From positions 1 to 36,816 of IMG/VR virus record IMGVR_UViG_3300044808_000081: a stretch of DNA of 36,816 nt. One strand, 5' to 3'. The translations under genes were made by a program, and so were the position numbers. Shown piece after piece: positions 1-17,939 of the stretch. The notes beneath the pieces were generated by a model. The model did no database searches and had not been told where the DNA came from. It saw nothing but the letters and a program-made list of their open reading frames with translations. This DNA comes from a virus. Numbering within the stretch: position 1 is the stretch's first letter; every line of letters starts with the position of its first letter.

Positions 1-1149
1 ATGCCGAATGAGGGGGAAACCTTCACCGTTACCGCGGATGATGAAGGCAAGATCATCTACTGGTCGAAGGGCGCCGAAGAGGTGCTCGGTCTGGACGAGG
101 CCGACGCTGTCGGGCTCAACCTCGTCGCCAGACTCTTCACGAGGTTCGACCTCATCAAGGGCTATGGCGCTTTTGCCGACGCGCTCAAGGGCGGCAGCTG
201 GGAAGGACAGATCTACGCCCGGCACAGAAATGGATCCGAGATCCCGCTGCTCCTCTCGCTCGCCCCGATCGAAGACGAGGAGGGCGTGACCTTTGGAGTG
301 GTCGCCGCCGGCCAGGTGCTCCCGGTGAAGGACCCCGACGGCGTCGATCTCAAGGACGAGTTCCTCAGCTACCTGATCCATGAGCGAGGCCTCTCCCCTC
401 TCACCGCGACCACCTATCTCGCGGGGCTGGAGCGCCTCGAGCGGTTCTGCGGGAAGGCAGCCGAGCTGCTCCAGGCGAACGACGTCCGCCATTTCCTCAG
501 GGAGTCGGGTGGCGCTCCGTCGACGAGGAACAACACGCTCTCCTCGATCAAGGCGTTCTTCCGCTGGATGAACCTCGAGGGCTACCGCGATTACTCGCCG
601 ATCCTGTCGGTCTCGGGCCCGAAGAAGACGCCGGCGGCGCCCAAGTCACTTCGGGTTTCGGAGTCGCGCCAGATCCTCGACCTTTGTTCACGGCCGCACG
701 AGTTCCGGGTCATCTACTTCGGTCTCTACGCCGGGTGTCGCGTCTCCGAAAGCGCCCGCATCACAGCGAACGAGTGGCAGGACGATCGCCTCCGCTTCCT
801 GGGCAAGGGACGCAAGATCCGCGAGGTCCCGCTTCACCCGATGCTTGCCAAGCACCGCGAGGTCATCCTCTCGAAACAGCCATCCGAGTCGACGCTGAAG
901 CACCTGTGTGTCTCTTTCGCTCACCTGACCGGCATCCAGTTCTCGAGCCACGATCTGAGGAAGACGTTCGGGGTGATGCTGTCCGAGGCCCGCGTAAGCC
1001 GGGACGTGATCGCCGAGCTCCTCGGTCACACCCAGTCCGTGACGACCGCCTCCTACGTCCCCGTCCGCTGGGGCGAGCTCGTCGAGGCGATGGAGAAGCT
1101 CACCTACGGAACCGACGAGGAGCTGAAAGAGATGGTCGGGCGTGAGTAG
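1..1149 (+). CDS. int: PAS domain-tyrosine recombinase (phage integrase) fusion
   Basis: A 382-residue protein that should catalyse site-specific integration and excision of the phage. Residues about 7-105 read as a PAS sensor fold (GKIIYWSKGAEEVLG near the start, then GSWEGQIYARHRNG and a final beta hairpin). Residues about 116-200 are a SAM-like core-binding domain (YLIHERGLSPLTATTYLAGL). The catalytic domain has the full set R247 (GCRVSE), K269 (GKGRK), H317-x-x-R320 (SSHDLRKTF), H343 (LLGH) and the nucleophile Y352. The PAS module takes the place of the arm-binding domain often found at the N-terminus of phage integrases. It lacks the LOV cysteine motif, so any ligand is unknown. The first base of the window is the A of its ATG, so upstream signals and a possible longer N-terminus cannot be seen. 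It overlaps the next gene by 8 bases. The recombinase call is secure; the PAS call is strong by motif but not tested. Confidence 0.93.
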   Translation: MPNEGETFTVTADDEGKIIYWSKGAEEVLGLDEADAVGLNLVARLFTRFDLIKGYGAFADALKGGSWEGQIYARHRNGSEIPLLLSLAPIEDEEGVTFGVVAAGQVLPVKDPDGVDLKDEFLSYLIHERGLSPLTATTYLAGLERLERFCGKAAELLQANDVRHFLRESGGAPSTRNNTLSSIKAFFRWMNLEGYRDYSPILSVSGPKKTPAAPKSLRVSESRQILDLCSRPHEFRVIYFGLYAGCRVSESARITANEWQDDRLRFLGKGRKIREVPLHPMLAKHREVILSKQPSESTLKHLCVSFAHLTGIQFSSHDLRKTFGVMLSEARVSRDVIAELLGHTQSVTTASYVPVRWGELVEAMEKLTYGTDEELKEMVGRE

Positions 1150-1357
1150 ACAGTGGGACGGCTGGCAGCGGGAGATCGATCTCCTCGAGCTGGGCTTGCC
1201 GGCGGCACGCTGCATGATCGGCGAGAACGAGTTCGAGGACCCCGAGCGGATCGTCGCCGGCCGCGCCTACCGGGCGATCCAAACGAAGCTCCGAGAAGTG
1301 AACCAACGGCTGTGGGCCAAGCGCCGGCCTTTCGACCGCATTAGTCTCGGAGCCTGA
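1142..1357 (+). CDS. small hypothetical protein coupled to the integrase
   Basis: A 71-residue protein starting at a GTG inside the last codons of the integrase, so the two are probably translationally coupled. It is mostly charged and helical, with no signal peptide, membrane segment or Cys pair. I do not recognise the family. Its place directly after the integrase suggests a partner or a recombination directionality factor, but it does not show a clear winged-helix excisionase pattern, so that remains a guess. About 25 bases separate it from the next gene. Confidence 0.65.
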   Translation: MSRQWDGWQREIDLLELGLPAARCMIGENEFEDPERIVAGRAYRAIQTKLREVNQRLWAKRRPFDRISLGA

Positions 1358-3006: not shown

Positions 3007-3007
3007 C

Positions 3008-3692: not shown

Positions 3693-3895
3693 TTCGACTC
3701 CAACGTCGAGACGGCCGCTTCCGCTGTTCGGGCGCCGGAGAGTGCTAGTCGTTTCCACTCGTCGCGGTCCTTTCGCATCTCGTCGTACGCCCAGCCCCAG
3801 ACCCAGAGCTTCTTGAGGCCCATCCAGATCCAGAGCACCAGCGCGCCCAACAGGCCGGCGTCACGGAAGAGCTCGACGAGTTCGACAACGGTCAT
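3689..3895 (-). CDS. small one-helix membrane protein, holin-like
   Basis: A 68-residue protein whose ATG overlaps the stop of the putative holin as ATGA. An N-terminal amphipathic stretch (MTVVELVELFRDAG) leads into one hydrophobic helix (LLGALVLWIWMGLKKLWVWGWAY) and then a charged helix (EMRKDRDEWKRLAL). This layout is common among small membrane proteins next to the endolysin in actinophages. It could be a second holin, an antiholin or an accessory lysis protein. An upstream in-frame extension overlaps the holin gene entirely and is rejected as the start. Confidence 0.65.
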   Translation of the reverse strand: MTVVELVELFRDAGLLGALVLWIWMGLKKLWVWGWAYDEMRKDRDEWKRLALSGARTAEAAVSTLESK

Positions 3896-4110
3896 CCCTT
3901 CTTGGCGATACCGCGCGAGATCGCGTAGGCACCGGTGCCACCAGCGGTGACCGTCATCCACTGGTCGGCTGTGATCGAGTGCGTCGCGCAGAGGATGGTC
4001 GCGGCGATCACCGCAAGTAGCGTGAGCCAGAATTCCGTCGACGCGAGTCCGGCCTTTGGCTCGAACTCAGCCTCTTCGTTCTTCTTGACCCCTTTGACCT
4101 TGGCCGTCAT
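3892..4110 (-). CDS. putative holin
   Basis: A 72-residue protein beginning at an ATG that overlaps the amidase stop as ATGA. It has a charged N-terminus (MTAKVKGVKKNEEAEFEPKA), two hydrophobic segments (STEFWLTLLAVIAATILCA and WMTVTAGGTGAYAISRG) and a basic end (GIAKKG). The pattern S/T-E-F-W followed by a helix, then YAxSRGxAK at the C-terminus, is typical of actinophage holin-like proteins. It would form the membrane lesions that release the endolysin. Its place directly after the amidase supports this. A longer open frame running through the amidase in the same frame is a shadow. Confidence 0.75.
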   Translation of the reverse strand: MTAKVKGVKKNEEAEFEPKAGLASTEFWLTLLAVIAATILCATHSITADQWMTVTAGGTGAYAISRGIAKKG

Positions 4111-4784
4111 CGCCTCTTCTCCTTCAGCCCGTAGAGGTAGCCGCGCACCCGGCCCCGGAACTTGTCGAGGTCGATGCCCGCCGGATCGATCTTTCGGGAC
4201 GTCCATTCCTTGTGGCCGATCACCATCGGTGGGCCGACGTCCATACGGTTGAGGAGCGAGGCGAAGAGCCTGCCAATCGCTTTCTTCTGCTCCTCCGGCC
4301 ACTCTTCGCCAAGGCCGTCGTTCTCGCACTCGACTCCGATGAGGTAGCTGTTGCCGTCGTCCTCCGGGATGCCCTTCAGCGGCCCACCTTCGCCAGCGTG
4401 GTAGCACCGACCGGCGGCGACGAAGTAGATCGTCCCGTCGCGACCGACGACGAAGTTCGAAAGCGGTCCCGGGAGATCCGCGCGACCGTGAGTGACGATT
4501 CCCAGCGCCGGCGCGTTGCCGAGCTTCTTTCCGGACGCTGTGTGGTGGAACATGACCCCGCGCGGCTCGAACGTCCCCGGATGACCACGGTCCTTCCAGC
4601 CTTCGACTTTCTCGATCCTGAGGCCCAGCTCCTTCAGCTCCGCGCCGAGGCCGTCGAAGATGCGATCGACCTTCGGTCCGAGGGGGGTCACGTTCGCGAC
4701 GCGGCGAGTGGTGATCGATTCGGTGTCTGGCTCTAGCTTCGGTCGGGAAGTGTCCTGAACATCGCTCTGCGAGAAGTCGCACAT
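4107..4784 (-). CDS. endolysin, N-acetylmuramoyl-L-alanine amidase (Amidase_2)
   Basis: A 225-residue zinc amidase expected to cut the bond between N-acetylmuramic acid and L-alanine in the cell wall. Residues about 72-215 carry the Amidase_2 / peptidoglycan-recognition fold: GVMFHHTAS (zinc ligand H80 or H81), DGTIYFVAAGRCYHAG, IGVECEND, and IGHKEWTSRKIDP (H191 and D200 as the other likely zinc ligands, K198 conserved). The first 70 residues include a predicted coiled stretch (VDRIFDGLGAELKELGLRIEKV) and no signal peptide, so export depends on the holin. No separate wall-binding domain is seen. The gene follows a short gap containing a CTGCATAGAC site and has no strong ribosome site. Confidence 0.92.
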   Translation of the reverse strand: MCDFSQSDVQDTSRPKLEPDTESITTRRVANVTPLGPKVDRIFDGLGAELKELGLRIEKVEGWKDRGHPGTFEPRGVMFHHTASGKKLGNAPALGIVTHGRADLPGPLSNFVVGRDGTIYFVAAGRCYHAGEGGPLKGIPEDDGNSYLIGVECENDGLGEEWPEEQKKAIGRLFASLLNRMDVGPPMVIGHKEWTSRKIDPAGIDLDKFRGRVRGYLYGLKEKRR

Positions 4785-4819
4785 GGACCGAGCATCGGGG
4801 AGAGGGTTAACGCTGGGTC

Positions 4820-4829
4820 GTCTATGCAG
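4820..4829 (-). promoter_or_regulatory. CTGCATAGAC boundary site A
   Basis: An exact copy of CTGCATAGAC on the - strand, beginning at the base after the stop codon of the RTX gene and 36 bases before the amidase start. It is one of four identical sites, all in the direction of transcription at non-overlapping gene junctions. Regulatory function is inferred. Confidence 0.55.
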
Positions 4830-5450
4830 TCAGCGTTCGCACCCATAGCGCGCTTCGGAGCGACAGGTGTCGGTACCGTCCCCGCCGTAATCGGAGTCAT
4901 CGGTTCCCGCGCCCCCGTCGAGGTAGTCGTTGCCTTTATCTCCCGTTAACCGATCGTTGTTCGAAGGCCCGCCGTTGATCCAGTCGTTGCCTTCGTAGCA
5001 AGGTCGTCCGTAGGCGATGTCCCGCGCGCAGTAGTCGCCCGTCGCTATGTTCCCGTCGAGCGTGTACGTCCAATCGGGTCTACTTGCTCCCGCTGCTCCG
5101 GTGGAGATCGTGTCATCCCCGCCGTTGCCTTCGAGAGAGTCGTTGTCGTCACCGCCGCGCATCGTGTCGTCGCCCTGGTTCCCGTAGAGGTCGTCGGGGC
5201 CAGGGCCACCGCAGATGAGGTCCGAACCCCCTAGTCCTTGGATGATGTCGGAACCTGGCCCGCCCTGGATGATGTCCCTGATCGAGGTCCCGTTCAGAAC
5301 GTCGTCGCCAGTGGTCCCGACGATGTTCGCCGCGATGCCATCGCAGGTGGTCTCCACGACGAGCACTTCCTGGGTCGAGCGCGTCGCAGCGAAGATCCCA
5401 CCAGCTAGAGCGGTTGCGGCGAGGCCGGCTGCAAGAGCTTTGCGCCTCAT
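4830..5450 (-). CDS. secreted RTX-type calcium-binding repeat protein
   Basis: A 206-residue protein with a signal peptide (MRRKALAAGLAATALAGGIFAA). A run of glycine/aspartate nonapeptides typical of hemolysin-type calcium-binding repeats follows (GGPGSDIIQGLGGSDLI, GGPGPDDLYGNQGDDTM, and later GDKGNDYLDGGAG). Such repeats fold as a parallel beta-roll with calcium between the turns. A middle insert (about 118-155) breaks the repeats and carries cysteines (DYCARDIAYGRPCYEG); two more cysteines lie near the end. It overlaps the upstream fibre gene as ATGA and is followed by the lysis genes. It could be a secreted adhesin, a virion accessory protein, or a host-derived surface protein. Similar short RTX proteins are common in Thermoleophilia-like actinobacteria, so acquisition from a host is plausible. 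Confidence 0.85.
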   Translation of the reverse strand: MRRKALAAGLAATALAGGIFAATRSTQEVLVVETTCDGIAANIVGTTGDDVLNGTSIRDIIQGGPGSDIIQGLGGSDLICGGPGPDDLYGNQGDDTMRGGDDNDSLEGNGGDDTISTGAAGASRPDWTYTLDGNIATGDYCARDIAYGRPCYEGNDWINGGPSNNDRLTGDKGNDYLDGGAGTDDSDYGGDGTDTCRSEARYGCER

Positions 5451-6259
5451 GCGAGCTTCACGACGTACAGAGAGACGCTAGAAAGTTCCTTAGCGCCTCC
5501 ACTGTTCTGGTAGACCTTCACGGCGAGGGGGATGGGCAGGTTGCCGTTCCAGAACTCTGTTACGACCACCACGCCCGTGGCGGCAAGCAGCGCGAGGGGT
5601 CCGGGTGGGGCGTAGTTCTCTACGTCTTTGCTGTCTGAAGCCGAGACCAGAACCTTTCGGACGTCGTTTCCGGTGTCACCCCATTGCACGGTGGGCTGGA
5701 TAACGTAGACCCCTTCTTCGAGAAGCCTCATGTTCCCGCCACTTAGATCGCACCAGTCCGGGGCCAGGCTGAGACTTGCCAACGGCGCAATCACGTCCAC
5801 GCCGTCCGGAACCGCTAGAGGACCGAGGCTCGCAAACCCAGATGCCCTTCGGTCGTCGAGCGCTATCTCTGACCCTCCGCCCGACGGCGGCGCGGGGACG
5901 AGATCGTCAGCTTCGGCGTCGAGAGTCACTACATCGCCTGGAGCGGCACCCTCGAGATCAAGCTCAGGTTCAGGGGTTTCTCGGGTTCCGCGAACGACGA
6001 GATGCTTCGCTGGCGCGCGGCCTTCGTTCACCGCTGCAGAACCTGAACCTGGGACCGTTAGCGGATACGTCCATCGGTGCCCACCGTGCGTGGCCGTCTC
6101 GGTCACCAGGTATTCACCCGCGGCGAGCGTGCTGGTCCACGACCCATTCGTCACGGTCGGTGAAGTCGGTGACCCGATCGCTACCCCGGTGTCGGGGTCG
6201 ATCTCCTGGATCGAAACGGTTGAGAGCGGATTGTCAACGCTGCGCGTGACTGAGGGCAT
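5447..6259 (-). CDS. minor tail / fibre-tip protein, putative receptor-binding
   Basis: A 270-residue protein with a strong ribosome site (AAAGGAGG before the ATG). The N-terminal 75 residues look like a prealbumin-like or Ig-like beta domain (VSIQEIDPDTGVAIGSPTSP ending GEYLVTETAT). Residues about 80-150 are a linker rich in Pro, Gly and acidic residues. The C-terminal 115 residues resemble a C1q/TNF-like jelly-roll head (RLLEEGVYVIQPTVQWG, then LPIPLAVKVYQN and LSSVSLYVVKLA). Such trimeric heads are common at fibre tips. Its place after the tail-fibre gene supports a receptor-binding role, but this is inferred from fold hints only. Confidence 0.65.
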   Translation of the reverse strand: MPSVTRSVDNPLSTVSIQEIDPDTGVAIGSPTSPTVTNGSWTSTLAAGEYLVTETATHGGHRWTYPLTVPGSGSAAVNEGRAPAKHLVVRGTRETPEPELDLEGAAPGDVVTLDAEADDLVPAPPSGGGSEIALDDRRASGFASLGPLAVPDGVDVIAPLASLSLAPDWCDLSGGNMRLLEEGVYVIQPTVQWGDTGNDVRKVLVSASDSKDVENYAPPGPLALLAATGVVVVTEFWNGNLPIPLAVKVYQNSGGAKELSSVSLYVVKLA

Positions 6260-6313
6260 CGTTCCTCCTTTGATGTCTCAGCCGAGAGTGAGGGAGGAAC
6301 GTTGCGCGGCGTC

Positions 6314-6323
6314 GTCTATGCAG
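6314..6323 (-). promoter_or_regulatory. CTGCATAGAC boundary site B
   Basis: An exact copy of CTGCATAGAC on the - strand, two bases after the tail-fibre stop codon and 55 bases before the next start codon. The following bases (GACGCCGCG) resemble those at site A (GACCCAGCG). Function is inferred from recurrence and placement. Confidence 0.55.
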
Positions 6324-6325
6324 AG

Positions 6326-7798
6326 CTAGGCGTTCCGCATCTGCAGCTGGGTGGAGATGTGAACGTGAGAGCTCGCGGCCATCGTTGCGTTGGTGACGAA
6401 GGCGACGACGTAGTGCCCAGAAGCAGGAACGGCGAAGTCAGAACCGACAACGTTGTTGGATGAGTCCGCTGCTGGGTTGGTCAGAGTTGCGGTGCTTCCC
6501 GCTACCGCGGCCCCGATCGTGTAGATGACGAGCCCCGCACCTCCCGATGTTGCAGGTCTGGTTATCGGATGGAGTCCGAACACGAACGTCCCGGTGAATG
6601 GGGCGACGTCGTTGCAATGCACCACGGCGCGAAGGCGGAGCTTCGCGGCGAGTCCTCCGACCGAGGGGAAGTCGTTTTGGTCGATGTAGATCGTGTTCAG
6701 CGGGTAGAGCGTTCCCGTTCCTGTGATTGCCGCCGGATCTCCTTGGCCCAAGCCGTAGGTCCCCGCAACGCGCGCCGCTATGTGCGAGCCAGATGAGTCG
6801 AGGAGATGTCGGTAGGAGGCGTTAGGGACCGAGTCGCCGCGCGCCGCTGAGGTTGAAGTTGTTCCTAGTGTTCTCAGTGACCCGGTGGCCGCCGCTGCGT
6901 CTATAGCGAGAGCATCTGCTCCTCCGGCGTTGTGCAGGGTCGCGTGAGCCGGCAGATCAGCCGCGACGAGGGCGAGGATGGCTTTGAGTTCGGCCATCGT
7001 CATCGAGACGATCCCGCCCGCCGCCTTACGTCCGATGACCTGACTCGCTCCAACCGCTAGAGCTATCGGCGTGTCGTCGGCGTCGGCTTTGAGGATCGTG
7101 TTCGCGTCGAAGATGGCCTTGTCGACCTTCAGGGCGTCGGCTGTTGCTTGGGCGGTGGAGACCGGCTTATTCGCGTCCGATGTGTTGTCGACGTTCCCAA
7201 GTCCGAGCGTAGTGCGCTGCGCGGCTGCGTCGGCGTCATCGATCAGCGCCCTGCCAGCAGCGGTAAGTGGGATCTCCTCGATGTCTCCCGCGCCTGCGGT
7301 CGAACGTCCGAGAAGCTTGTCCGTGGCCGAGACGTTCTGGAACTTGGCGTAGGCGAAGGAATCGTTCGGGACCGTGACCGTTCCGGTGAAGGTCGGAGAG
7401 GCAAGGGGAGCTTTGAGGTCGAGTGCGGTCTGCTGCGCGGTGCTTACCGGTTTCGCAGAGTCAGCCGTGTTATCGACGCTGCCTAGTCCGACGTCCCCCT
7501 TCGCCAGAGCGAGGTCGGCCTTCAGTTGGGCCATCGTGCGCGCCGCCCATGCTCCGGCCTTGCGTTGGAGGATGTCGTCGTTCGATGGTGAGAGTCCCGC
7601 TATCGCGGTGAGATCGGCATCGGCGGCCTGCCTCGCCCCCACCAAAGCGTCGACTGCCGCCTTCAGGTAGTAACGGATGTCTCCGCGCGTGTCGTTGTGG
7701 TACTGGGAGTGATCGTCATCGGCGAGCCCCGTTAGCGCGCCGTGGTCCGATACTCCCCCGCCAGGACCGCCAGCGATGCCCGCCTCGTCGACGGTCAC
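6326..7798 (-). CDS. tail fibre protein with VDNTSDxxKPVSTAQ repeats
   Basis: A 490-residue protein starting at GTG with a GTGA overlap. The N-terminus has the HGALTGLADDDHSQYHNDTR motif typical of phage fibre and baseplate proteins. Two copies of the classic fibre repeat lie at about 104-121 (LGSVDNTADSAKPVSTAQ) and 199-217 (LGNVDNTSDANKPVSTAQ). Between them is a segment of the TFTGTVTVP type. The C-terminal 180 residues, after GTLYPLNTIYIDQNDFP, form a beta-rich domain likely to bind the host or to follow the trimer axis. These repeats are well known in long-tailed phage fibres, so the family call is strong. The receptor is unknown. Confidence 0.88.
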   Translation of the reverse strand: MTVDEAGIAGGPGGGVSDHGALTGLADDDHSQYHNDTRGDIRYYLKAAVDALVGARQAADADLTAIAGLSPSNDDILQRKAGAWAARTMAQLKADLALAKGDVGLGSVDNTADSAKPVSTAQQTALDLKAPLASPTFTGTVTVPNDSFAYAKFQNVSATDKLLGRSTAGAGDIEEIPLTAAGRALIDDADAAAQRTTLGLGNVDNTSDANKPVSTAQATADALKVDKAIFDANTILKADADDTPIALAVGASQVIGRKAAGGIVSMTMAELKAILALVAADLPAHATLHNAGGADALAIDAAAATGSLRTLGTTSTSAARGDSVPNASYRHLLDSSGSHIAARVAGTYGLGQGDPAAITGTGTLYPLNTIYIDQNDFPSVGGLAAKLRLRAVVHCNDVAPFTGTFVFGLHPITRPATSGGAGLVIYTIGAAVAGSTATLTNPAADSSNNVVGSDFAVPASGHYVVAFVTNATMAASSHVHISTQLQMRNA

Positions 7799-10497
7799 AG
7801 CTTGCCCACGAGCTCGAGGTGCTTCTGCAACTTCAGGTTGAAGCGCTCCAACTGCTGGAATCGGGGAAGGGTCGTGAGCGTCACGAGGGACTGCTCACGC
7901 TCGAGCTCGTCGATCCGCAAGGTGACCCTCCGGTTCGGTTCGTAAACGAGATCGCCGGCGCGCGCGTCCTGGGCCGGATGCCAGCGGCCGTTCTTCATCA
8001 AGCGCGTGCACACGATCGTCCCCGCGTAGCGCCTCGAGGAATGGAAGTCGGCCGACACCTGGGCGAGCCTCTTCGCCTTCTCCTTCGCCACCCAGTGCTC
8101 GAGCACGATCGGTGGCGCCTCGACGATCCGGTCGAGAGGGTTGGGATCCGCCTTCGCCGAGGCGAGCACGCGGCCCTTGGGGTCCTGGACCGTCTGGTAG
8201 TTGAAGCGCGGTTGAGGGTCGAGGTTCCTCACGGCCTCCGGATCGAACACCGTCCACTTCCGGCCCCCGGCCCCCCACTTCCTGAAGTCGAGCACCGGTC
8301 GTCGACCAACTCGGTAGATGAGCCAGCGCCAGCCGGTGAGGATCGACATCAGGTCGAAAATCTCTTCCCACGTCATTCCGCGGTAGTCGCCTGGGAGGCA
8401 ATTGACGCCCGAGTCCTTCACGTAGCGATCGGAGATGCCGAGAGCCGCGGCCCCCACACGCATCACGTCGGAGCAGTCGAAGAAGTCGCCGGTCGCTAGG
8501 CCGTTCACGCGCGGGTCTGTCAGGTCGAGGGTGAAGGGCTGTGCGTTCGTCACGGCCCCCTCGCGCCTCAACGCGAAAGCCACGAGGCTCGCGTCCGTCC
8601 CGACGTTCACGTCGATCTCTCCTGGGAGCTCGTCGCATCCCCAGGAGTCGACGGCTGTGAAGGCATGCTCTCGATCGACGGCGGACTGCAGGAGGAGCGT
8701 GTAGCCCGAAGCGTCCCTCGAGGGGTCTGTTCTGATCGCGACGCGAGAGATTTTCTCCCGGTCTTTGTCGTTGATGATGCGAGCGAGCTGCTGGTCCTCG
8801 ATGTCGGCGCCGCGCGCGACGTGGAATCGGATGACACCTTCGCCATCGGGTTTCGAGACCTCGATCTCGGTCGCAGCGAACCCAGATTCCAGTTCGGGGT
8901 TCAAGTTGAGGACCGCGTCCGCTGTGCTATCGACGTAGGTCGTGTCGGTGTTGTCGGCCAGAGTGTCGAGCTCGTAGAACGTAGAGCCCCCCGCCTCGGT
9001 CCGATAGATCTTCCGAGCCGTCACCCACTTGGGGCCGATCGGGATGCTCGAGAGGTCGACCTCCTTGGCGCTCGTGGAAACGGTGATCGAGGTCGAAGGT
9101 CCGCCGCGGGTTTCCCCGTCAGCCGAGACGAAGGTGATCTTGTACTTGTGCACACCGACGTTGACATTGCCGGCTCCGCCGATGGAGAGATCGGGCCCCC
9201 TTTTCGGAGGCTTCCCTCGAGCATGAGGTTCGGAGCCCTGCTCTTCCCACGTCTCGATCTTCGGGTCCTGGAGGAAGAGACGCTTGAACTCGCGGCTTGC
9301 CATCGCGAACGGCCCCTGCCCGGCTAGATCGGCAAGGCCCCCGTTCACCCCCGGCTCGTTGAGCTTGCAGCTCGCAAGGATCTCGCCGGTCTCCTTGACG
9401 ACCGTGTAGAGATTCGAGCGTGGAGCGAAGAGCGCCGGATCCTCATCGATCGCCGTCTTCGGGAGTTGCCCGGCCTGCCCGATCCAGCCGCCGTTCGCAC
9501 GTTCGGTAGCGGACCAGTGGCCGAGCTTCAGTGACTGCGCGTGGCCCTTCGGGGAGGCGATGTAGTGAGCTGGGGTCGCTGTGGGGGTGCCTAAGAACTT
9601 GCCTCGAGCGAACACCGGGGGCGCTGTGTAGGCGAAAACCGCTCCGACCATGCGGCCGTCCGAGGCTCCATCGGAGATCGTAAAAGCGACCGGCACTACC
9701 TCACTGTCTCCACTGCTCGAGCTTTCCTTCCATGCGAGAGTCGCTCTGCCTGTGGCCCCTGCCCCAGAGGAGACGTTGCCGTCGACGACATCACCGCCCC
9801 AGGGATCGGTCGCGTCGAAGAAGTTCCCGAAGGCGGTCGACTGCATCGCCGCGGCGAACAGGATCGACTCGAAGTTCGCCACTCCCGAGTCAGAGCCGAT
9901 GAGGTTGGTGATCGAGCCGGTCCCGTTGTTGGCGATGTCGGTATCGGTCAGGGCCCCGACGAACTCCCATTCACCGTCTGCCGACTCGGTGTGCCACAGC
10001 CATCCTCGAACGATCACCTGCGTGCCCATCGTCGGATGAGATGTGAGGGCGGGAAAGGTCAGGGTGACGTCCGACAGCGAAGCGAGGGAGAGGTTGTAGA
10101 CCAGAACCATCGTCTGCTTGTGCCCGCCGGCCGAACCCGTTCCCAAGAGCAGCTTCGACCATCCAGCCGGGACAGTCAGGTCGGCCGCCGAATAGGTCAC
10201 GGTCGCGTGGTTGAACCAGACGACGAAAGCGACGCAATCCCCTAGAGCTGGAGGCTGACCGGCCGTGCCTGAGCCGTCGAGGTCTACATAGCGCCGGTTA
10301 GGTCCGGTGTCATCGAGCCCCGAGAGGAGGTAACGCCGCGCGGTAGTGGTCGAGTAGACGGCCCAATACGTCGCGTTGGGAGGGACGTGGTTCGTGTGCG
10401 CCTGGATGCACTCGTAGCTGACATCTCCCGAGACCACGAGATCTCCGACCGCGTAAGCCTGGATCGCGGACCATTCGCCGATGAACTGCAGCGCCAC
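7795..10497 (-). CDS. large minor tail protein (tail-tip, with carbohydrate-binding N-terminus)
   Basis: A 900-residue protein starting at GTG directly after the upstream stop. The first 50 residues (WSAIQAYAVGDLVVSGDVSY followed by an Asn-Pro-Trp end) match the carbohydrate-binding CBM5/12-like pattern W-xx-Y-x-GD-xV-xxxGxxY. Residues about 70-300 look like a beta-sandwich. Residues about 430-560 contain a fibronectin-type domain (YKITFVSADGETRGGPS, ARKIYRTEAGGSTFYELDTL). The C-terminal 350 residues resemble tail-associated hub proteins (MTWEEIFDLMSILTGWRW, WLIYRVGRRPVLDFRKWG) and end in a coiled LERFNLKLQKHLELV. Position downstream of the tape measure and the next tail gene fits a tail-tip protein. 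Specific domain limits are estimates. Confidence 0.8.
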   Translation of the reverse strand: MALQFIGEWSAIQAYAVGDLVVSGDVSYECIQAHTNHVPPNATYWAVYSTTTARRYLLSGLDDTGPNRRYVDLDGSGTAGQPPALGDCVAFVVWFNHATVTYSAADLTVPAGWSKLLLGTGSAGGHKQTMVLVYNLSLASLSDVTLTFPALTSHPTMGTQVIVRGWLWHTESADGEWEFVGALTDTDIANNGTGSITNLIGSDSGVANFESILFAAAMQSTAFGNFFDATDPWGGDVVDGNVSSGAGATGRATLAWKESSSSGDSEVVPVAFTISDGASDGRMVGAVFAYTAPPVFARGKFLGTPTATPAHYIASPKGHAQSLKLGHWSATERANGGWIGQAGQLPKTAIDEDPALFAPRSNLYTVVKETGEILASCKLNEPGVNGGLADLAGQGPFAMASREFKRLFLQDPKIETWEEQGSEPHARGKPPKRGPDLSIGGAGNVNVGVHKYKITFVSADGETRGGPSTSITVSTSAKEVDLSSIPIGPKWVTARKIYRTEAGGSTFYELDTLADNTDTTYVDSTADAVLNLNPELESGFAATEIEVSKPDGEGVIRFHVARGADIEDQQLARIINDKDREKISRVAIRTDPSRDASGYTLLLQSAVDREHAFTAVDSWGCDELPGEIDVNVGTDASLVAFALRREGAVTNAQPFTLDLTDPRVNGLATGDFFDCSDVMRVGAAALGISDRYVKDSGVNCLPGDYRGMTWEEIFDLMSILTGWRWLIYRVGRRPVLDFRKWGAGGRKWTVFDPEAVRNLDPQPRFNYQTVQDPKGRVLASAKADPNPLDRIVEAPPIVLEHWVAKEKAKRLAQVSADFHSSRRYAGTIVCTRLMKNGRWHPAQDARAGDLVYEPNRRVTLRIDELEREQSLVTLTTLPRFQQLERFNLKLQKHLELVGKL

Positions 10498-12402
10498 TTA
10501 GTGGCTCCAGCGCGGGATGACCGTGTAGCGGAAGGTCCCTGATCGAGAGAGGACCACGCGGCCGAGAGGCTCGAGCTCGTCGATCGAGTCGTAACCGGGA
10601 TCCGAGGGAAGATCGATCATCGTCGCGACGAGGACGGAGTCTCCGGGCGGCAACATGAGAGGCCCGTTCTCCTGGATCAACGGGAAAGCGATCGCTCCGG
10701 TGTCCTCGGCTTGGGCGGTGCGCTCGTAGGAGTCGAGCACCGCAGGGAGATCCGTCGTGATCGCTTCGGTGAAGCGGTGCGTGGCATCGTGGATGCGGAT
10801 GGCGCGGCCGTCGAGGGTTGCTGCGGTCTGCTCGACCCGGATCCGGTATTTGTATAGCGCCGTGACGTCGGCAGCCGAGACCGAACATCTGAGGCCTTTG
10901 TCGAGCCGCGTCTCTGTCTGGTTCTTCCTGTTGCGGAGCTTGACGGATTTCCAGTCGACGAACCCGCCGCCGGTGTCTCGCTCGACGATGAGCTCTCCCA
11001 CGACGGTGATGTCCGGGTTGGGCTCGTCGTCTTCGTCGAGAAGAGCGTCCGTCGGCTCGAGGACCGTGACGTCGGCTCGAACTTCGTGCACGCCCGCCGG
11101 CCAGGCGAACCCGGTCCCTGCAACGGTGGACTTCACGATCGCGTACTCGTTCAGCTCGTTGAGGCGATAGGTCCCTCGCTTGAGCTTCCCCGTTCCGTCG
11201 AGCTCGTCGGCGTCGTAGGTCTCTTGGTGCCAGCTCCCATCGCGGAAGCCCGGGACCCCGACGTAGGAGTGGTAGTAGTCGGCCGGGTCGAAGGGAACGA
11301 TGTCGAGGACGAGGTCGGAGTCGCCGTTCCGTCGCTCCGCGTAGACGTCGTATGTGATCCCGGTCGCGCCTCTCGGGATGGTGATCTGGCCCATCTCCTG
11401 CTCGACGAAGTTCGGAGTGGCGATGTCCTGCCAGTCGAGGTCGACCACCTCGGTCGCCTCCATCACCATGTCGGCGGTGATGAACCCGTAGCGGATGCGG
11501 GCCCGAAACTTCGAGGGGTCCCCGTTGTCGACGATCTTGTGACGGAGGTAGAGCATATGCGTCCCCTCCATCGACGTGGGGTCGGTGAAGGTCTCCTCCA
11601 CACGCACGCGCTTCGCCATCGTCTCTTGACCGGAGAAGTCGACGAGCACCGCGTCCCCGCCCACCCCTGATGAATCGGCGGTCACCGTGGCGGCAGCGTC
11701 TGTGCCGAGCGTAGCGTCTGCCAAAGGGGCGCTCAGGTGGTCTGGATACTCCGTGAGGTTTCCGAGGCTCCTGAGGCCGAAACGTACAGCGCACAGGGAA
11801 CCTGAGTCGGGCACGAACTCCAACTTCGCCTCAGATCTCTTGTTGCCGGGGTTATTGAGGGCCATCGCCCGATCTCCGTTCGAGAACGCGATCCAATCGG
11901 AGACCACCGGAGCCGTGCGCGGGTGCGGGTAAGCAGCGACCCGCATCGGAAGGCCGGTGTCCAGCAGGAGCCTGGCGATGCGGAAGAGGCCCCGCTCTTG
12001 GCCGCGCAGCAGCTCGGGATAGGTGGAGGGGTCGATGTCCCAGTACTCAACCTCTGCCGAGCCTGCGATCTGGTAGACGAGCACGCGCGACTGATCGATC
12101 GCAGAGGCGAGATCGCGCACCCGAGCAACGACGGTGTCGATGTCGGCATCGTGAGGAAAGAAGTTCTTCCACGAAAGCATCCGCTGCCGTTGCCGGCTTG
12201 ACGCGTACTGGTCTCCATCCCAGCCTTCTGACGCAAGGGACATCGACTCGAAGGTTTCGGAGTCGAAGTCGGGATCCGCTTCGAGCCTGAAGCCGGTCTC
12301 GGTCTGCACGTTGAAGTCGAAGAGCACCGTGGTGGGCGCGAGCGGGTAGTTCGCGTCCGTCGGATCGGCGAGCCAAAGTCGTGTGTAGGCGTAGACGGTC
12401 AT
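10498..12402 (-). CDS. minor tail protein, distal-tail-like
   Basis: A 634-residue protein whose ATG overlaps the tape-measure stop (TAATG). The first 160 residues (PTTVLFDFNVQTETGFRLEA, WKNFFPHDADIDTVVARVRD, YWDIDPSTYPELLRGQERGL) are in the place of the distal tail protein that joins tube to tip. The remainder is a chain of beta domains (YLRHKIVDNGDPSKFRARIR, GTGKLKRGTYRLNELNEYAI, YKYRIRVEQTAATLDGRAI), probably carbohydrate-binding or structural. No catalytic motif is evident. A long Arg-rich open frame (10310-11794, same strand) crossing this and the next gene is a GC-driven shadow. Confidence 0.78.
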   Translation of the reverse strand: MTVYAYTRLWLADPTDANYPLAPTTVLFDFNVQTETGFRLEADPDFDSETFESMSLASEGWDGDQYASSRQRQRMLSWKNFFPHDADIDTVVARVRDLASAIDQSRVLVYQIAGSAEVEYWDIDPSTYPELLRGQERGLFRIARLLLDTGLPMRVAAYPHPRTAPVVSDWIAFSNGDRAMALNNPGNKRSEAKLEFVPDSGSLCAVRFGLRSLGNLTEYPDHLSAPLADATLGTDAAATVTADSSGVGGDAVLVDFSGQETMAKRVRVEETFTDPTSMEGTHMLYLRHKIVDNGDPSKFRARIRYGFITADMVMEATEVVDLDWQDIATPNFVEQEMGQITIPRGATGITYDVYAERRNGDSDLVLDIVPFDPADYYHSYVGVPGFRDGSWHQETYDADELDGTGKLKRGTYRLNELNEYAIVKSTVAGTGFAWPAGVHEVRADVTVLEPTDALLDEDDEPNPDITVVGELIVERDTGGGFVDWKSVKLRNRKNQTETRLDKGLRCSVSAADVTALYKYRIRVEQTAATLDGRAIRIHDATHRFTEAITTDLPAVLDSYERTAQAEDTGAIAFPLIQENGPLMLPPGDSVLVATMIDLPSDPGYDSIDELEPLGRVVLSRSGTFRYTVIPRWSH

Positions 12403-14012
12403 TAGCCGTCGACCATGGTTCTGCGCCGATCACGAGCCGTCTCGTAACGACGCCCCTCGATCATGGTGACGTTCTGACGACGCGCGCGGTCCCGAGTCAT
12501 CACTCGCTCGAAGGCCCGCTCCAACGCATGCTCGTCCAAGCCCAGGTGATTATTCGGGACAATCGAGCCGTTCGAGCGTGGAACGAAGAACTCGGGACCT
12601 CGTTCACCTACTAGGTAACGGTGGCCGGCAAGCACCGGCCCACCAAGGGCCTTCCGTTGTCCTCCGGTGTCGGATCCGGCGCCGGCACGCACTCCGCCCC
12701 CAGCTTGTTGGGCAGCTAGATTCGCCTGGACCTGTTGAGCGATGGAGGAACCAGCGACATCGTTGCCGACACCGGTGAGGTTCCCAACAGCTTCAGCCAG
12801 TCGTCTCGCCGTCTCGATCGCTCTGACCATCACGTTCACTAGGGCGGTCACCTGGTTGACGACATGGGTCACGTAGACCACCCACACCTTGAAGGCCTGA
12901 ACGAGAACCGAGCCCACGAAGCGCGCGAGGGGTCGCAGCGACTCCATGAGCGGGCCAACTGCCGCCACGAGCCTGTCCACGGCGACGCGGAAGGTCTCGC
13001 TCTTCTTGTAGGCCAGGACGAAGCCAGCAGCGACCGCTGCGATCGCAAGGATGACCGGGTGGGCGGCTAGAAGAGCAAAGACCGACACGAGCTTTCCCAG
13101 GACGATCAACAGCGGACCTACTGCAGCAGCGATAGCTGCGACCTGGACAGCCATACGCCTCTGCTGGGGAGACAAGCCCTGGAATCGCTCCGACAGGGAC
13201 GAGAAGATCGCGCTCATTCGACGAAGGACCGGCATCAGGATTCGACCGATGCTCTCGGCCATGTCGTTGAAAGAAAGTCTGATCCGCTCGAAAGGGCCCA
13301 GCGCGCGACCGGCAGCCTTTGCTGATCCGCCGAACTCGATCTGCAGCTCGTGCAGGATGATCTTCTGTGCCTCGAGCTGTCGGCCCGACTCGACCAGTGT
13401 GGTGATCTGCTCACGCTGTTGCTCAGTGAATTGAACGCCTGCCCGCCCCAACGCGGTGACTCCACGGATCGGGTCGTTGAGTGCTTTGCCGACCTGGATC
13501 GCCGCGCCGTTGAGGTCTTTCCCGAGACGGGCCGACACGTTTGCGATCGACAACGAGGCTCGGTCGAAGATTTTGTTCCCTTCGCCAACTTCGTTGCGGA
13601 CCCGTTGGAAAGTGAGAAGGACGTTCTCTGCGGCCTGCACCTCTTCGGCGTCGCGACCAGCCAGCTCCCCGATGCGATCCGACAGACCACGGATCTCCTT
13701 GGCGGTGATGTTCGCTGCCTCGCCAGTGGACTTCAAACCCGCTGCTGTCTGAGCGTTCACCTCTCGTACCTCGGTGAACTCGTCGGCGGCTACCTTGCCC
13801 ATCAGAAGGAAGGGCGCGGTGAGAGCGATGCTGGCCGAGCGACCCGCCGCCTGCATGCTCGTCCCGAGAACGGCTGCTTTCGCGGCGACCTGCTTCATGG
13901 ACGAAGCCACGAGCCACTGGCTCTCCGCGATCGACCTCTTGAGTAGGGCGTTCTCGCCGACAAGCTCGACGACTGCGCGGCCGATGCGAGCGCCGCCGAC
14001 GTTCAGAGGCAT
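12402..14012 (-). CDS. tape measure protein
   Basis: A 536-residue protein that should set tail length. It starts at an ATG sharing one base with the chaperone stop codon (TGATG). The N-terminal half is long helices (ALLKRSIAESQWLVASSMKQ and on). Residues about 285-345 hold two or three hydrophobic segments (VQVAAIAAAVGPLLIVLGKL, HPVILAIAAVAAGFVLAY), as in other tape measures that enter the membrane. The C-terminal part has the recurring motif HRYLVGERGPEFFVPRSNGS found near the end of many siphovirus tape measures. At about 1.5 angstrom per residue the tail would be near 80 nm, a rough estimate from family behaviour. Confidence 0.92.
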   Translation of the reverse strand: MPLNVGGARIGRAVVELVGENALLKRSIAESQWLVASSMKQVAAKAAVLGTSMQAAGRSASIALTAPFLLMGKVAADEFTEVREVNAQTAAGLKSTGEAANITAKEIRGLSDRIGELAGRDAEEVQAAENVLLTFQRVRNEVGEGNKIFDRASLSIANVSARLGKDLNGAAIQVGKALNDPIRGVTALGRAGVQFTEQQREQITTLVESGRQLEAQKIILHELQIEFGGSAKAAGRALGPFERIRLSFNDMAESIGRILMPVLRRMSAIFSSLSERFQGLSPQQRRMAVQVAAIAAAVGPLLIVLGKLVSVFALLAAHPVILAIAAVAAGFVLAYKKSETFRVAVDRLVAAVGPLMESLRPLARFVGSVLVQAFKVWVVYVTHVVNQVTALVNVMVRAIETARRLAEAVGNLTGVGNDVAGSSIAQQVQANLAAQQAGGGVRAGAGSDTGGQRKALGGPVLAGHRYLVGERGPEFFVPRSNGSIVPNNHLGLDEHALERAFERVMTRDRARRQNVTMIEGRRYETARDRRRTMVDG

Positions 14013-14544
14013 CAGGCTGCTCTCTTACGAGCGATGATCTCCTGGCGCTTGGCTACGCGCTCCGGGTCGCGGAAGAAGTCGTCATCGGGGAGCGACTCGT
14101 CAGTTGCTTGGCCCTGCAGCTGCGCTAGCTGCTTCGTGAACTCGTCGATCTCTCCGTAGGTCAAGAGATCTACCTCCCACGGCCTGATTCCAAAATGGTG
14201 GGCGAAGGCGGGGAGGGCGCGCCGGAGAGCGCGCCTTGGGTCGGGGGGTCTTCAGCGGCCGCCTCCTCAGTCAGCGATCTGTAGGAGAGCTTTTCGAGCA
14301 CCGCTTCGTAGGTCAGTTCCGGATTGTCTCTGCGATCGACGAGCCACTTCACCGCGCCGAACATCTCCAGCGTGTCCAGGTCGCCGCTTCCGACGAGCTC
14401 TGCAGCGCGCAGCATCGAAACACCCACCGCACGCCTGAAGTCACGAGCCTCGAGACCTGTGAAGTCGTTCAGATCAAGCGAGTACTTCTGTCCATCGATC
14501 GACGCCTCGAGCTTGAGCTCGTTCTGGATCTCTTCCTCAGGCAT
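14012..14544 (-). CDS. tail assembly chaperone, long form made by -1 frameshift
   Basis: A programmed -1 shift on the heptamer C CCC CCG (14248-14242) would join codons 1-101 of the short chaperone to a second frame that is open to the TGA at 14014-14012, giving about 177 residues. The downstream frame reads ALPAFAHHFGIRPWEVDLLT and ends in the charged stretch PERVAKRQEIIARKRAA. The FGIRPWEVDLLTYGEIDEF segment is characteristic of the second-frame half of siphovirus tail chaperones. It has no good start of its own, and it ends exactly on the tape-measure start (TGATG). The short and long forms act together to fold and polymerise the tape measure and tail tube. Confidence 0.85.
14170..14544 (-). 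CDS. tail assembly chaperone, short form
   Basis: A 124-residue protein starting at the ATG directly after the tail-tube gene. It contains LKLEASIDGQKYSLDLNDFT, FRRAVGVSMLRAAELVGSGD and VKWLVDRRDNPELTYEAVLE, the usual helical pattern of the lambda gpG-like chaperone. The end (TQGALSGAPSPPSPTILESG) is low-complexity because the reading frame from there on is conserved mainly for the shifted product. It is expressed with a minor frameshifted form and works during tail assembly. It is not expected in the finished virion. Confidence 0.85.
   Translation of the reverse strand: MPEEEIQNELKLEASIDGQKYSLDLNDFTGLEARDFRRAVGVSMLRAAELVGSGDLDTLEMFGAVKWLVDRRDNPELTYEAVLEKLSYRSLTEEAAAEDPPTQGALSGAPSPPSPTILESGRGR
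14242..14248 (-). other. -1 ribosomal frameshift slippery site CCCCCCG
   Basis: C CCC CCG is in the correct phase of the chaperone gene: the zero-frame codons are GAC CCC CCG, and after slipping they become CCC CCC GAC. This fits the XXXYYYZ rule for -1 shifting. It lies about 100 codons into the short chaperone and leads into the conserved second frame. Downstream GC-rich inverted sequence (GGCGCGC, GGCGCGCC) could provide a stimulatory structure. Confidence 0.8.
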
Positions 14545-15554
14545 CAGTAGGTCCCGGCCGTCTCGTTGGCGAGCGTGATCGTGATCTCGGTGCCACCGCC
14601 GGTGGGTCGTCCTACGGGCCCCGCCGCGTCGTACGTGATCGCGCCGCCGGCCGGATCCGAATCAGGGCGCTCCGTGTCGTAATCCCAGTTCGCTCCGTTC
14701 GACACGACCCTCAAAAGGCGCCCGGTTGAGACCGGGTGTCGTCCGAACGAAGCATCGAAGCTTCCACGAAGGAGGGTTTGCTCCTGACTCGTGCCGGCGA
14801 CAGCGCCGAGGTGCGCGCCCTTGAGGAAGTCCCAGCCTTGCTGTGCCGAGTCGTAGCGGATCCCTGCTGCGAAGTCGACGATGCGGTCACACTCGACCTC
14901 TTGTGGGGTGAGCGAAGCTCCGTAGTGCATCGTCAGCGCTCGGTCGATCACGAGCTCCACAGACTGGATATTCGTCATCAGCGCCGGCGTCGCGTTGTCT
15001 GCCTCGGCCTTGAAGGTTCCGCCGATGTACTTGAAGCGTGGCTCCGGCTCGGTGAGCGTGTAGGTCGGAGCTGCAGCAGGGACGGCAGTGAACGATGCGA
15101 CGTCCATCTCGATGAACACGAGATCTCCCGATGCAGCTCGGATGGTGATCTTGCTGATGTAGGCGTCGACGAACTTCCACCACTCGTCACCGACGAGGTC
15201 CCATATCGTGAGCGGGTTGTCGAAGGGGATCGTGTCCGCCAGCGTGAAGGTATGAAGGACCGCCCCGTTGGAGCCAGCGCCAACCGCCTGAGCTCCAGTC
15301 ACTTCGTAGATGACCAGTCCCGCGGCTTCCGGGTGGGCGAGGATTGTGACCGTCCCGCCTCCGCCGGCGCGATGCTTGAACGGGCCCCACCTCTGAACGG
15401 TGTCACCAGTGAGCGGCAGGTCTCCCCTCTCTGTGCGCGGCTTCAGCCCCCCCGAAACCTTGGGAACGGTGAAGGTGGGGTTAGCCGCCGCAGATCCGCG
15501 CGATGCCTGCTTCGCGAACCCGAGGGCTCCTTTGCGTCTCGAAACGGTAGCCAT
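14544..15554 (-). CDS. major tail tube protein
   Basis: A 336-residue protein starting at ATG (MATVSRRKGALGFAKQASRG). The pattern of an early GFAKQASRGSAAANPTFTVP, a beta-rich body with SGDLVFIEMDVASF, FKYIGGTFKAEADNATPAL and VELVIDRALTMHYGASL, and a DKxVDFxAGIRYD-like stretch matches siphovirus tail tube proteins. It sits between the tail terminator and the tail chaperone, as expected. Six-subunit rings of this protein would stack into the tail tube. The C-terminal ITITLANETAGTY may close the tube domain; no extra Ig-like domain is obvious. The stop overlaps the chaperone ATG by one base. Confidence 0.85.
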   Translation of the reverse strand: MATVSRRKGALGFAKQASRGSAAANPTFTVPKVSGGLKPRTERGDLPLTGDTVQRWGPFKHRAGGGGTVTILAHPEAAGLVIYEVTGAQAVGAGSNGAVLHTFTLADTIPFDNPLTIWDLVGDEWWKFVDAYISKITIRAASGDLVFIEMDVASFTAVPAAAPTYTLTEPEPRFKYIGGTFKAEADNATPALMTNIQSVELVIDRALTMHYGASLTPQEVECDRIVDFAAGIRYDSAQQGWDFLKGAHLGAVAGTSQEQTLLRGSFDASFGRHPVSTGRLLRVVSNGANWDYDTERPDSDPAGGAITYDAAGPVGRPTGGGTEITITLANETAGTY

Positions 15555-15557
15555 CGT

Positions 15558-15737
15558 CTACTTCCCCTTCCCGGGTGTCGCACCCAGCAGCTCGACGGCT
15601 TGGCGCTCCTTCTCGTTCTTCGGCGTGTACTGGCCTTCAGTGGTGACGGTGAACTCTGCCTCTCCGTTCGGGGTCGCAACGCAGTGGTCAGCCACGATCA
15701 GCGCCTCGCCTCGGTACGTCGGGAACTTCGTCGGCAT
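15558..15737 (-). CDS. small hypothetical protein between tail terminator and tail tube genes
   Basis: A 59-residue open frame starting at an ATG that follows GGAGATCTCG, a good ribosome site. It reads MPTKFPTYRGEALIVADHCV and ends in EKERQAVELLGATPGKGK. It fills what would otherwise be a 190-base gap. The stop is four bases before the tail-tube start. The beta-like character (EALIVADH, AEFTVTTEGQYTP) suggests a small virion or assembly factor, but I do not recognise the family. Confidence 0.7.
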   Translation of the reverse strand: MPTKFPTYRGEALIVADHCVATPNGEAEFTVTTEGQYTPKNEKERQAVELLGATPGKGK

Positions 15738-15746
15738 CGAGATCTC

Positions 15747-16193
15747 CTATTCCGTCACCGTGACGAGCGCTTCGGTTGCGTAACCCTCGTTCAGTCCTTG
15801 AGCCAGCTCCGGCGGGAGGTAGAGCGATTCGCCCGGAATCACTTGCCACGCCGCTCCGACTCCCAGTCCGTTCTTAGCTAGATGACGAATACGCCCTTCG
15901 ATGCGCTCCAGTGCGTCTATGAGAGCGGTAGCCGTCGCTTCGTCGTTGACGAGCGTGGTCGCTTCCTCGACCGATTCGACGTGCCAGGAGATTCCGATCG
16001 ACATCTCGCCGTCGAAGTTTTGAGTCTCGACCGGGGTCGGTTGCTTCGTCTGCAGCCACACGATCAGGAGCGGGCAGTCATCCGGCAGGATCGCGCGCGG
16101 CCGGCGGTATTTGATCGTCGAATGTGAAGGCAGACCAGCGCTGGCGTTCAGGTCCGTGGTGATGGCGTCGACGACGTCCTTCGCCAGGCTCAC
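15747..16193 (-). CDS. tail terminator / tail completion protein
   Basis: A 148-residue protein that, by position between the connector gene and the tail-tube gene, should cap the growing tail and join it to the head. The start (MSLAKDVVDAITTDLNASAG) and the body (PLLIVWLQTKQPTPV, MSIGISWHVESVEEATTL, TALIDALERIEGRIRHLAKN) give the alternating helix-strand pattern of gpU-like and gp17-like tail completion proteins. The overlap with the upstream connector stop is 4 bases. The assignment rests mostly on gene order and on size (usual range 120-160 residues). Confidence 0.72.
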   Translation of the reverse strand: MSLAKDVVDAITTDLNASAGLPSHSTIKYRRPRAILPDDCPLLIVWLQTKQPTPVETQNFDGEMSIGISWHVESVEEATTLVNDEATATALIDALERIEGRIRHLAKNGLGVGAAWQVIPGESLYLPPELAQGLNEGYATEALVTVTE

Positions 16194-16582
16194 GGCATCA
16201 GCTTTCTAAGGTTCGAAACGTACGCTTGAGGAAAAGAGCCGGCGGCGGCCTCGAGGAAGTGCTTACCGACGATCGTCACGGACTTCGCCGATGCGGTGAT
16301 CCGACCCCGGTTGGCTCCGATCAAGAGCCTGCCCCCGGGTCTCTTCGGACGGATGGTGCCACCCCATTGCTGGATCGGGCCGTAGACCTTCGATGTCCCA
16401 ACGAGAGCGTGCAATGTGCCGATCCGTTTCGGGTGCGCGAGCTCGGCGCCGATACCACCGCCGCCGGCCTTCACCGCCGCGAGCCTGGCTGAGCTACGAG
16501 CCGCTCCGTCGAACGCCTTCTGCGGGATGGTCGTTGTGATCGCCTTGATCCGGTCCGGGTACCAGGTCACGCGCGACGGCAT
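16190..16582 (-). CDS. HK97 gp10-like head-tail connector / minor tail protein
   Basis: A 130-residue basic protein (MPSRVTWYPDRIKAITTTIP) with SSARLAAVKAGGGGIGAELA and VYGPIQQWGGTIRPKRPGGR. The YxxxxxxGGxIRPK motif is commonly seen in HK97 gp10-like neck proteins. The C-terminal VGKHFLEAAAGSFPQAYVSN matches the helical end of that family. It lies one gene upstream of the tail terminator, the normal place for this component of the neck. It starts at the ATG sharing a base with the upstream stop. Confidence 0.75.
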   Translation of the reverse strand: MPSRVTWYPDRIKAITTTIPQKAFDGAARSSARLAAVKAGGGGIGAELAHPKRIGTLHALVGTSKVYGPIQQWGGTIRPKRPGGRLLIGANRGRITASAKSVTIVGKHFLEAAAGSFPQAYVSNLRKLMP

Positions 16583-17451
16583 CAGTTCGCTCTCGGCAAC
16601 GCGTCGCGCCGCTGCGAAAGACCGGTGACCTGAACCGAATACAGCGCGTCCTTGGGCTTCAGCGGGTGATGCAGCAGCTCGAGGAGCCGGACGATCTTCG
16701 GGTCCTCCTCAGGCGTGAAGTAGGAGAACTCGGCCGTCTCTGTCCGGTAGCCGGTCAGATAAGCGCCCGTCGGGCCCTGCATCGCCTTGTTCAGCCCACT
16801 GCCGGCGTCCTTCGCCACCATCAACCGGAGACACCGTTCTGCGAGCTCTCTACGCCTCTCACCTTGAGCGAAACCGAAAAGACCCTCAATCGCAATGGGG
16901 GCGTTCCAACTCCAGTAGTTGCGGTCGTAACCCCTGCGCTTCAACGCGAACCCGTCGGCGATGAGCTCGTAATCGGTGGCTAGAAGATCGGCGTCCCACT
17001 CGCTGAGCGACGTGAGGCTACGGATGCGATCGACGGGGACCAGCACTTCCTTCCCCTCACCGAGCATGGCAAGGGTGACCGGGGTGTCGGTCTCGGTGAT
17101 GGTGATCGTGACTCCGATGGCCGTCGCGGTCGCCTGCTCCGACATCTCGATCGACGTGGCGCTGTTGCGCGCTGCGATCGTGGTCCCCGAAGGGATTCCG
17201 ACGCCGGAGATGGGCCGGCCTACGTCGGTGAGCGTGAAGGCGGCCGTAGCCGAGGTAAGTGTTTCGTCGTTGTCCGTGGTCACCGCATCTGCGACTGAAC
17301 GCGTGGGATCAGGCACGTCGACCCGGTAGCCGATCAGTTCGTAGAGAAGCGCCTCGTTGTCGTCGAGAGCGTCCTGGACGTCCACGCTGGAGAGTCCCGC
17401 AGCTTGCGCTTCGCGGCTCGCCTGGAACTCTTCCAGCGTGACAAGAGCCAT
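16582..17451 (-). CDS. head-tail adaptor protein with inserted beta domain
   Basis: A 289-residue protein taken to start at ATG 17451, four bases after the upstream stop; a longer frame to 17568 overlaps the decoration gene. Residues 1-50 (MALVTLEEFQASREAQAAGL, NEALLYELIGYRVDVP) and 120-230 (GYDRNYWSWNAPIAIEGLFG, ERRRELAERCLRLMVAKDAG) look like the helical gp6/gp15-type adaptor that docks onto the portal. Residues about 54-120 are an inserted beta module with TDVGRPISGVGIPSGTTIAA, a motif often found in virion surface proteins. This makes the protein longer than usual for the family. The C-terminal 60 residues may contact the tail. Confidence 0.68.
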   Translation of the reverse strand: MALVTLEEFQASREAQAAGLSSVDVQDALDDNEALLYELIGYRVDVPDPTRSVADAVTTDNDETLTSATAAFTLTDVGRPISGVGIPSGTTIAARNSATSIEMSEQATATAIGVTITITETDTPVTLAMLGEGKEVLVPVDRIRSLTSLSEWDADLLATDYELIADGFALKRRGYDRNYWSWNAPIAIEGLFGFAQGERRRELAERCLRLMVAKDAGSGLNKAMQGPTGAYLTGYRTETAEFSYFTPEEDPKIVRLLELLHHPLKPKDALYSVQVTGLSQRRDALPRAN

Positions 17452-17455
17452 TGAA

Positions 17456-17863: not shown

Positions 17864-17939
17864 CTAGTACCTCCTGGTTGCGGCGGCTCTGTTGTCGCCG
17901 CCTCCTCTTGAAGCTGTCTCAGCTTGGTGATGCGGGTTG
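17864..17939 (-). promoter_or_regulatory. intergenic region with two hairpins before the decoration gene
   Basis: This 76-base gap holds two perfect inverted repeats: AAGCTG-3 bases-CAGCTT (17911-17925) and GGCGGC-9 bases-GCCGCC (17882-17902), then the ribosome site of the decoration gene. Neither is followed by a T-run, so they are more likely RNA-stability or attenuation elements than full terminators. The -1 reading frame of the upstream gene is open through the whole gap. Confidence 0.4.

Follow-up and report, generated by a model that had tools for sequence, protein, structure and literature searches.

The control of phage integrases normally lies with arm sites, excisionases, protein turnover or transcription. 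What could a sensor-type fold be doing at the N-terminus of the sole recombinase found in a phage record? This is the question raised by the first gene of the virus record analysed here (36,816 bases, classed linear; "the window" below denotes this entire stretch), a single open frame of 382 codons that runs from an ATG at base 1 to a TAG at 1147-1149 and in which a PAS domain precedes the core-binding and catalytic domains of a tyrosine recombinase (Table 1). The protein is real and unusual. It belongs to a known family of enzymes as a seemingly unreported variant, for which a single contig is the source, and its interpretation depends on the nature of the PAS domain, on the ancestry of the recombinase to which it is attached and on the integrity of the left end of the record.

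Table 1. Coordinates of the integrase gene, its domains and neighbouring features in the window
Feature	Position	Strand	Basis or content
PAS-tyrosine recombinase gene	1..1149	+	382 aa; sole recombinase found in the record; start codon at base 1
PAS domain	19..315	+	residues ~7-105; Pfam PAS_9 (E 1.1e-11), sensory_box (E 1.1e-9), model topology, PDB fold matches
Short linker	316..348	+	residues 106-116; low-confidence coil in the model; alignment with PAS relatives
Core-binding (SAM-like) domain	355..579	+	residues 119-193; PF02899 (E 6.4e-13); model helices 117-192, pLDDT mostly ~90 or above
Catalytic domain	649..1059	+	residues 217-353; PF00589 (E 5.3e-13; 4.5e-14 in a second search); two alignments
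71-aa ORF	1142..1357	+	GTG start overlaps the integrase stop (GTGAGTAG)
Late region, siphophage-type	3892..24461	-	Amidase_2 endolysin, tail genes, tape measure, capsid, portal, terminase subunits

The N-terminal PAS domain

The first-pass annotation had assigned residues 7-105 to a PAS domain, and this reading is borne out by profile searches and by fold comparison. In the Pfam search with the whole protein, PAS_9 matches residues 10-102 (profile positions 5-96 of 103) with 45.3 bits against a cut-off of 27 (E 1.1e-11), and the models PAS (E 2.5e-6) and PAS_3 (E 3.4e-6) likewise exceed their own cut-offs; the PAS S-box model sensory_box of NCBIfam matches the N-terminal part as well (E 1.1e-9), and PAS models are the only ones in either collection that match residues 1-110. 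When residues 1-115 are folded alone, without relatives (AlphaFold2), the mean pLDDT is only 54 but the order of strands and helices is PAS-like; the PAS secondary structure in the model consists of strands at 7-12 and 17-21, helices within 25-62 and strands at 67-74, 80-92 and 95-103. Although a single-sequence model of such low confidence can mislead, here sequence and structure agree: the best 50 Foldseek matches of residues 1-115 in the PDB are all PAS- or LOV-containing proteins, and a second structure aligner gives Z values of up to 10.3 with LOV/PAS chains among the matches listed. In the AlphaFold2 model of the full protein, built with 16 recombinase relatives, most of 120-340 reaches a pLDDT of about 90 or more, whereas values stay low in the PAS domain because none of the relatives covers it. 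The conserved S-box positions are kept, the sequence is intact with a foldable core, and only about 10 residues of predicted coil join the domain to the recombinase.

As for what such a domain might sense, the roles of the photoactive cysteine and of the flavin-contacting asparagines in LOV domains are established, and in the alignment to phototropin-2 LOV1 the cysteine position is occupied by Leu41 and the two asparagine positions by Ala73 and Leu83. Because these residues are lost, LOV photochemistry is unlikely; light, redox state and ligands had all been listed initially as possible inputs, and it is the light part of this list, in its LOV-type form, that Leu41, Ala73 and Leu83 argue against. 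Gln105 may lie at the position of the conserved glutamine of LOV domains, a hint that is weak taken alone. A profile built from PAS relatives also matches the heme or FAD PAS proteins MmoS, DosP, NifL, FixL and Aer and does not identify a cofactor. The domain has the same fold and S-box pattern as the PAS S-box sensor proteins (the GGDEF sensor 3lyx, MmoS 3ewk, NifL 2gj3 and phototropin LOV1), but the output of those proteins is a kinase, a cyclase or a regulator, whereas here the PAS sits on a recombinase.

An alternative that we consider rather unlikely, while granting it some weight, is that the PAS domain is a structural protein-protein module and not a sensor, one that brings integrase protomers together as dimers or serves as the docking site for a directionality factor and so functionally replaces arm-site contacts. 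PAS domains often dimerise, and the best Foldseek match to the PAS model, 5iu1, is titled a PAS homodimer. The alignment with PAS relatives and the model show neither the S-box DIT motif at the end of the domain nor the long connector helix that would serve signalling, and the loss of the LOV flavin residues is similarly compatible with a structural role. The 71-aa ORF coupled to the integrase gene is perhaps the docked directionality factor; against this, it is unlike the known excisionases in Pfam and PHROGs.

An arm-less recombinase with a probably added domain

The remainder of the protein is readily recognised. With the whole protein as query, Pfam Phage_int_SAM_1 matches residues 119-193 (E 6.4e-13) and Phage_integrase residues 217-353 (E 5.3e-13), and the main PHROG integrase matches start at about residue 115. 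The catalytic residues R247, K269, H317, R320, H343 and Y352, which had been called a complete set at the outset, are all present under the same numbering, with support from both alignments: 6/6 are invariant among 5 sequences and 5/6 among 17 sequences, where H343 is nearly so. NCBIfam XerC matches the recombinase with E 1.6e-27, but the protein scores far below the curated cut-offs of the XerC/XerD equivalogs, with 96.7 against 335 bits and 87 against 330 bits. Fold comparison ranks the Brujita mycobacteriophage integrase first (5vfz, Foldseek E 8.9e-12), then XerA, an integron integrase and lambda Int; sequence comparison puts Brujita gp33 first (phmmer E 2.9e-14), with an archaeal Xer and XerD next. 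Relatives from Gordonia phages are about 272-276 aa long and begin at the core-binding domain. In a tree of 43 proteins, the window protein forms a lone long branch among simple recombinases, within no resolved subgroup.

Tyrosine recombinases have been split into simple ones, with core-binding and catalytic domains, and complex ones that carry an arm-binding domain in addition, the Brujita integrase belonging to the former (Smyshlyaev et al., PMC8138268); according to the same study, the acquisition of a regulatory N-terminal (arm-binding) domain by simple enzymes gave rise to the recombinases of mobile elements. The window protein has the core-binding and catalytic domains and the R-K-H-R-H-Y set of a simple recombinase, and from base 1 of the record onward it shows no match to an arm-binding domain or family in Pfam, NCBIfam or PHROGs. 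By fold, sequence and tree, its recombinase part is a simple, arm-less, Xer/Brujita-like enzyme. Because the nearest relatives, namely Xer-like enzymes and the integrases of Brujita and of Gordonia phages, have no arm-binding domain, the PAS domain most likely joined an enzyme that had no arm domain, rather than taking the place of one. Hence the proposal that it stands in the place of the arm-binding domain holds with respect to position but probably not with respect to replacement.

The IntBrujita-type integrases (Brujita gp33, 5vfz, and those of the Gordonia phages Walrus and YungMoney) are likewise phage-borne and arm-less, with the two domains and the full catalytic set, but they begin at the core-binding domain, with no PAS ahead of it, identity to those of the Gordonia phages is only 25-30%, and the tree does not place the window protein with them. 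The Xer recombinases (XerA, XerC/XerD) share the two domains, with 4a8e, 5hxy and XerD among the close PDB matches, whereas canonical Xer proteins carry no PAS and the window protein falls far under the XerC/XerD cut-offs. Complex integrases of the lambda type are, like the window protein, three-domain enzymes with an extra N-terminal domain ahead of the core-binding and catalytic ones, but theirs is a DNA-binding arm domain and here it is a PAS. Separately, seven simple recombinases from viral contigs (L002, L012, L013, L167, L169, L184 and L195) form one clade with a short, non-PAS N-terminal extension, which is another N-terminal add-on to simple recombinases.

Phage context and the search for a second example

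The window carries a siphophage-type late region, and endolysin, tape measure, head protease and small terminase are all found in it. The capsid protein is 60% identical to those of Arthrobacter phages, the portal 44% to that of a Thermobifida phage and the terminase 43% to that of a Streptomyces phage, similarities that make an actinobacterial host likely. Several further genes of the minus strand deserve mention: a protein with RTX calcium-binding nonapeptide repeats (4830-5450, PF00353 E 4.1e-21) and a signal-like N-terminus, encoded between the tail genes and the endolysin; a 900-aa tail-region protein with an N-terminal carbohydrate-binding module (7795-10497, CBM_5_12 E 2.9e-6); a probable toxin-antitoxin pair formed by a HicA toxin-like gene (PF07927 E 8.6e-7) and a HicB-like gene after it (27581-28192); a DNA methylase (29334-30677, N6_N4_Mtase E 4.6e-30); and, in the phage early region, a Fic/DOC family protein (30946-31638, PF02661 E 4.3e-8).

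No tyrosine recombinase besides the PAS-recombinase was found in the record, nor any match to a serine recombinase or resolvase. Immediately downstream, the overlap of the GTG of the 71-aa ORF with the integrase stop (GTGAGTAG) suggests coupled translation, and the ORF, which has no Pfam match and no PHROG match better than E 0.02, is probably coupled to the integrase in this way. Its product is a candidate for a directionality factor or for another partner of the integrase. Farther along the plus strand, before the lysis genes, lie three genes for a membrane-anchored acidic-linker protein, a multi-pass membrane protein and a secreted protein (1383-3006); they have no PHROG match and may be lysogeny genes or host flank.

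The integrase ATG opens the record and the start codon of a gene on the minus strand closes it, in the manner of a provirus trimmed at gene borders, as we infer, and since its base 1 is the first base of the ATG, any further N-terminus upstream is out of sight. No tRNA was found in the record and no convincing direct repeat between its ends; trimming of the record probably left the att sites outside it. Could the fusion, then, be an artefact, either a host recombinase lying beside a prophage or a misassembly that joined a PAS gene to a recombinase gene? Besides the gene-border ends typical of trimmed provirus records, such a reading could draw on the lack of end repeats, on the restriction of the sequence to one contig and on the lack of phage-family matches at 1383-3006. 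However, the record holds no other integrase, and GC content and tetranucleotide profile are uniform between 1-3500 and the phage genes, so that the left end is not set apart. Furthermore, the joint is in frame and at a domain boundary, with coding-like third-position GC on both sides of it (0.81 in the PAS part, 0.87 in the recombinase part). We regard an artefact as very improbable.

A second PAS-recombinase was sought in IMG/VR, with the whole protein, the PAS alone, the linker plus core-binding part, the catalytic part and two alignments as queries, as well as in INPHARED, PLSDB, one GTDB scan and about 500 sampled genomes, and none was found. A DNA-pattern scan of viral contigs likewise gave no second example; in phages and plasmids (tblastn), no place covers 80% of the protein, and the phage records show no convincing PAS; and the GTDB scan of genome contigs yielded 36 relatives of the core-binding part, with a PAS in none. 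The sampled genomes, 301 of Chloroflexota and 198 of Bacteroidota and thus from outside the likeliest host phylum, the actinobacteria, gave no example in scans that rely on short exact peptides and are weak for distant homologues. For two recombinases of viral contigs, L169 and L195, an alignment seemed to extend into the PAS domain, but both have short N-termini in which a phmmer search with the PAS gives no match. A full-text literature search returned no description of a natural PAS-integrase, in keeping with the remark in the first-pass annotation that no characterised phage integrase of this architecture was known.

Because the protein is a singleton, conservation cannot show that the PAS domain is under selection together with the recombinase. 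This is compatible with a recent accidental fusion in which the PAS has little or no function and is perhaps bypassed by internal initiation, to give a normal arm-less integrase of about 283 aa. The coding sequence of the PAS does contain a perfect AGGAGG close to two in-frame GTG codons (96 and 100), but its spacing to them (about 2 and 14 nt) is poor. Moreover, the intact sequence of the domain, its conserved S-box positions and its foldable core are not what a functionless passenger would suggest, and we hold an accidental fusion to be improbable.

Possible roles of the fusion

The explanation that we prefer, in which our confidence is about evenly divided, is that the protein is the integrase of a temperate siphophage, probably of an actinobacterium, in which a simple recombinase is fused to an N-terminal PAS acting as a regulatory module that gates recombination. 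The three domains in one frame, the PAS fold, the complete catalytic set, the lack of any other recombinase in the record and the uniform composition all speak for this explanation; against it stand the singleton status of the protein, the absence of the DIT motif and the long connector helix, which are frequent carriers of PAS signals, and the lack of phage-family matches for the genes at 1142-3006, given which the left end could be host DNA.

In lambda-type systems, direction is set through arm sites, an architecture that arm-less integrases do not have. Given that there are no arm sites through which accessory proteins could set direction, a PAS domain could supply the control that arm-less integrases lack. 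Judging from the complete catalytic set and the predicted fold, the recombinase part would cut and rejoin attP and attB by the usual Tyr352-linked mechanism and in this way integrate the phage. The PAS, as a regulatory module placed by the short linker next to the first core-binding helix, might respond to a bound ligand, to redox state, to a partner or to a change in its dimer state, and the response would alter the pairing of protomers on the core site and the assembly of the synaptic tetramer, so that integration or excision would be gated. A more specific version of this hypothesis, which we advance tentatively and with somewhat less than even confidence, is that of a natural single-protein, signal-gated phage integrase: the PAS would bind a metabolite or redox cofactor of the host cell and allosterically permit or block assembly of the synapse, and the integrase would then itself share in the decision between lysogeny and excision, alongside repressor and excisionase.

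The nearest precedent is an engineered one. In LiCre, a fusion of LOV2 to Cre, a domain of the PAS superfamily likewise precedes a tyrosine recombinase and lies beside its first core-binding helix (PMC7997657), and LiCre demonstrates that a LOV/PAS domain fused at this place can make recombination switchable. In the model put forward by its authors, the LOV domain prevents tetramers from forming and perturbs this helix until light releases it (PMC7997657). LiCre, however, is man-made and combines a flavin-binding LOV with a weakened Cre, whereas the natural PAS described here has neither the photoactive cysteine nor the connector helix.

The fusion would matter if, through it, a signal in the cell could turn phage integration on or off directly. 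A sensor fold built into the recombinase would couple DNA integration directly to the state of the cell, and fusion with a PAS would be another evolutionary path besides the gain of an arm-binding domain. The PAS-recombinase would then be the natural counterpart of engineered switchable recombinases such as LiCre.
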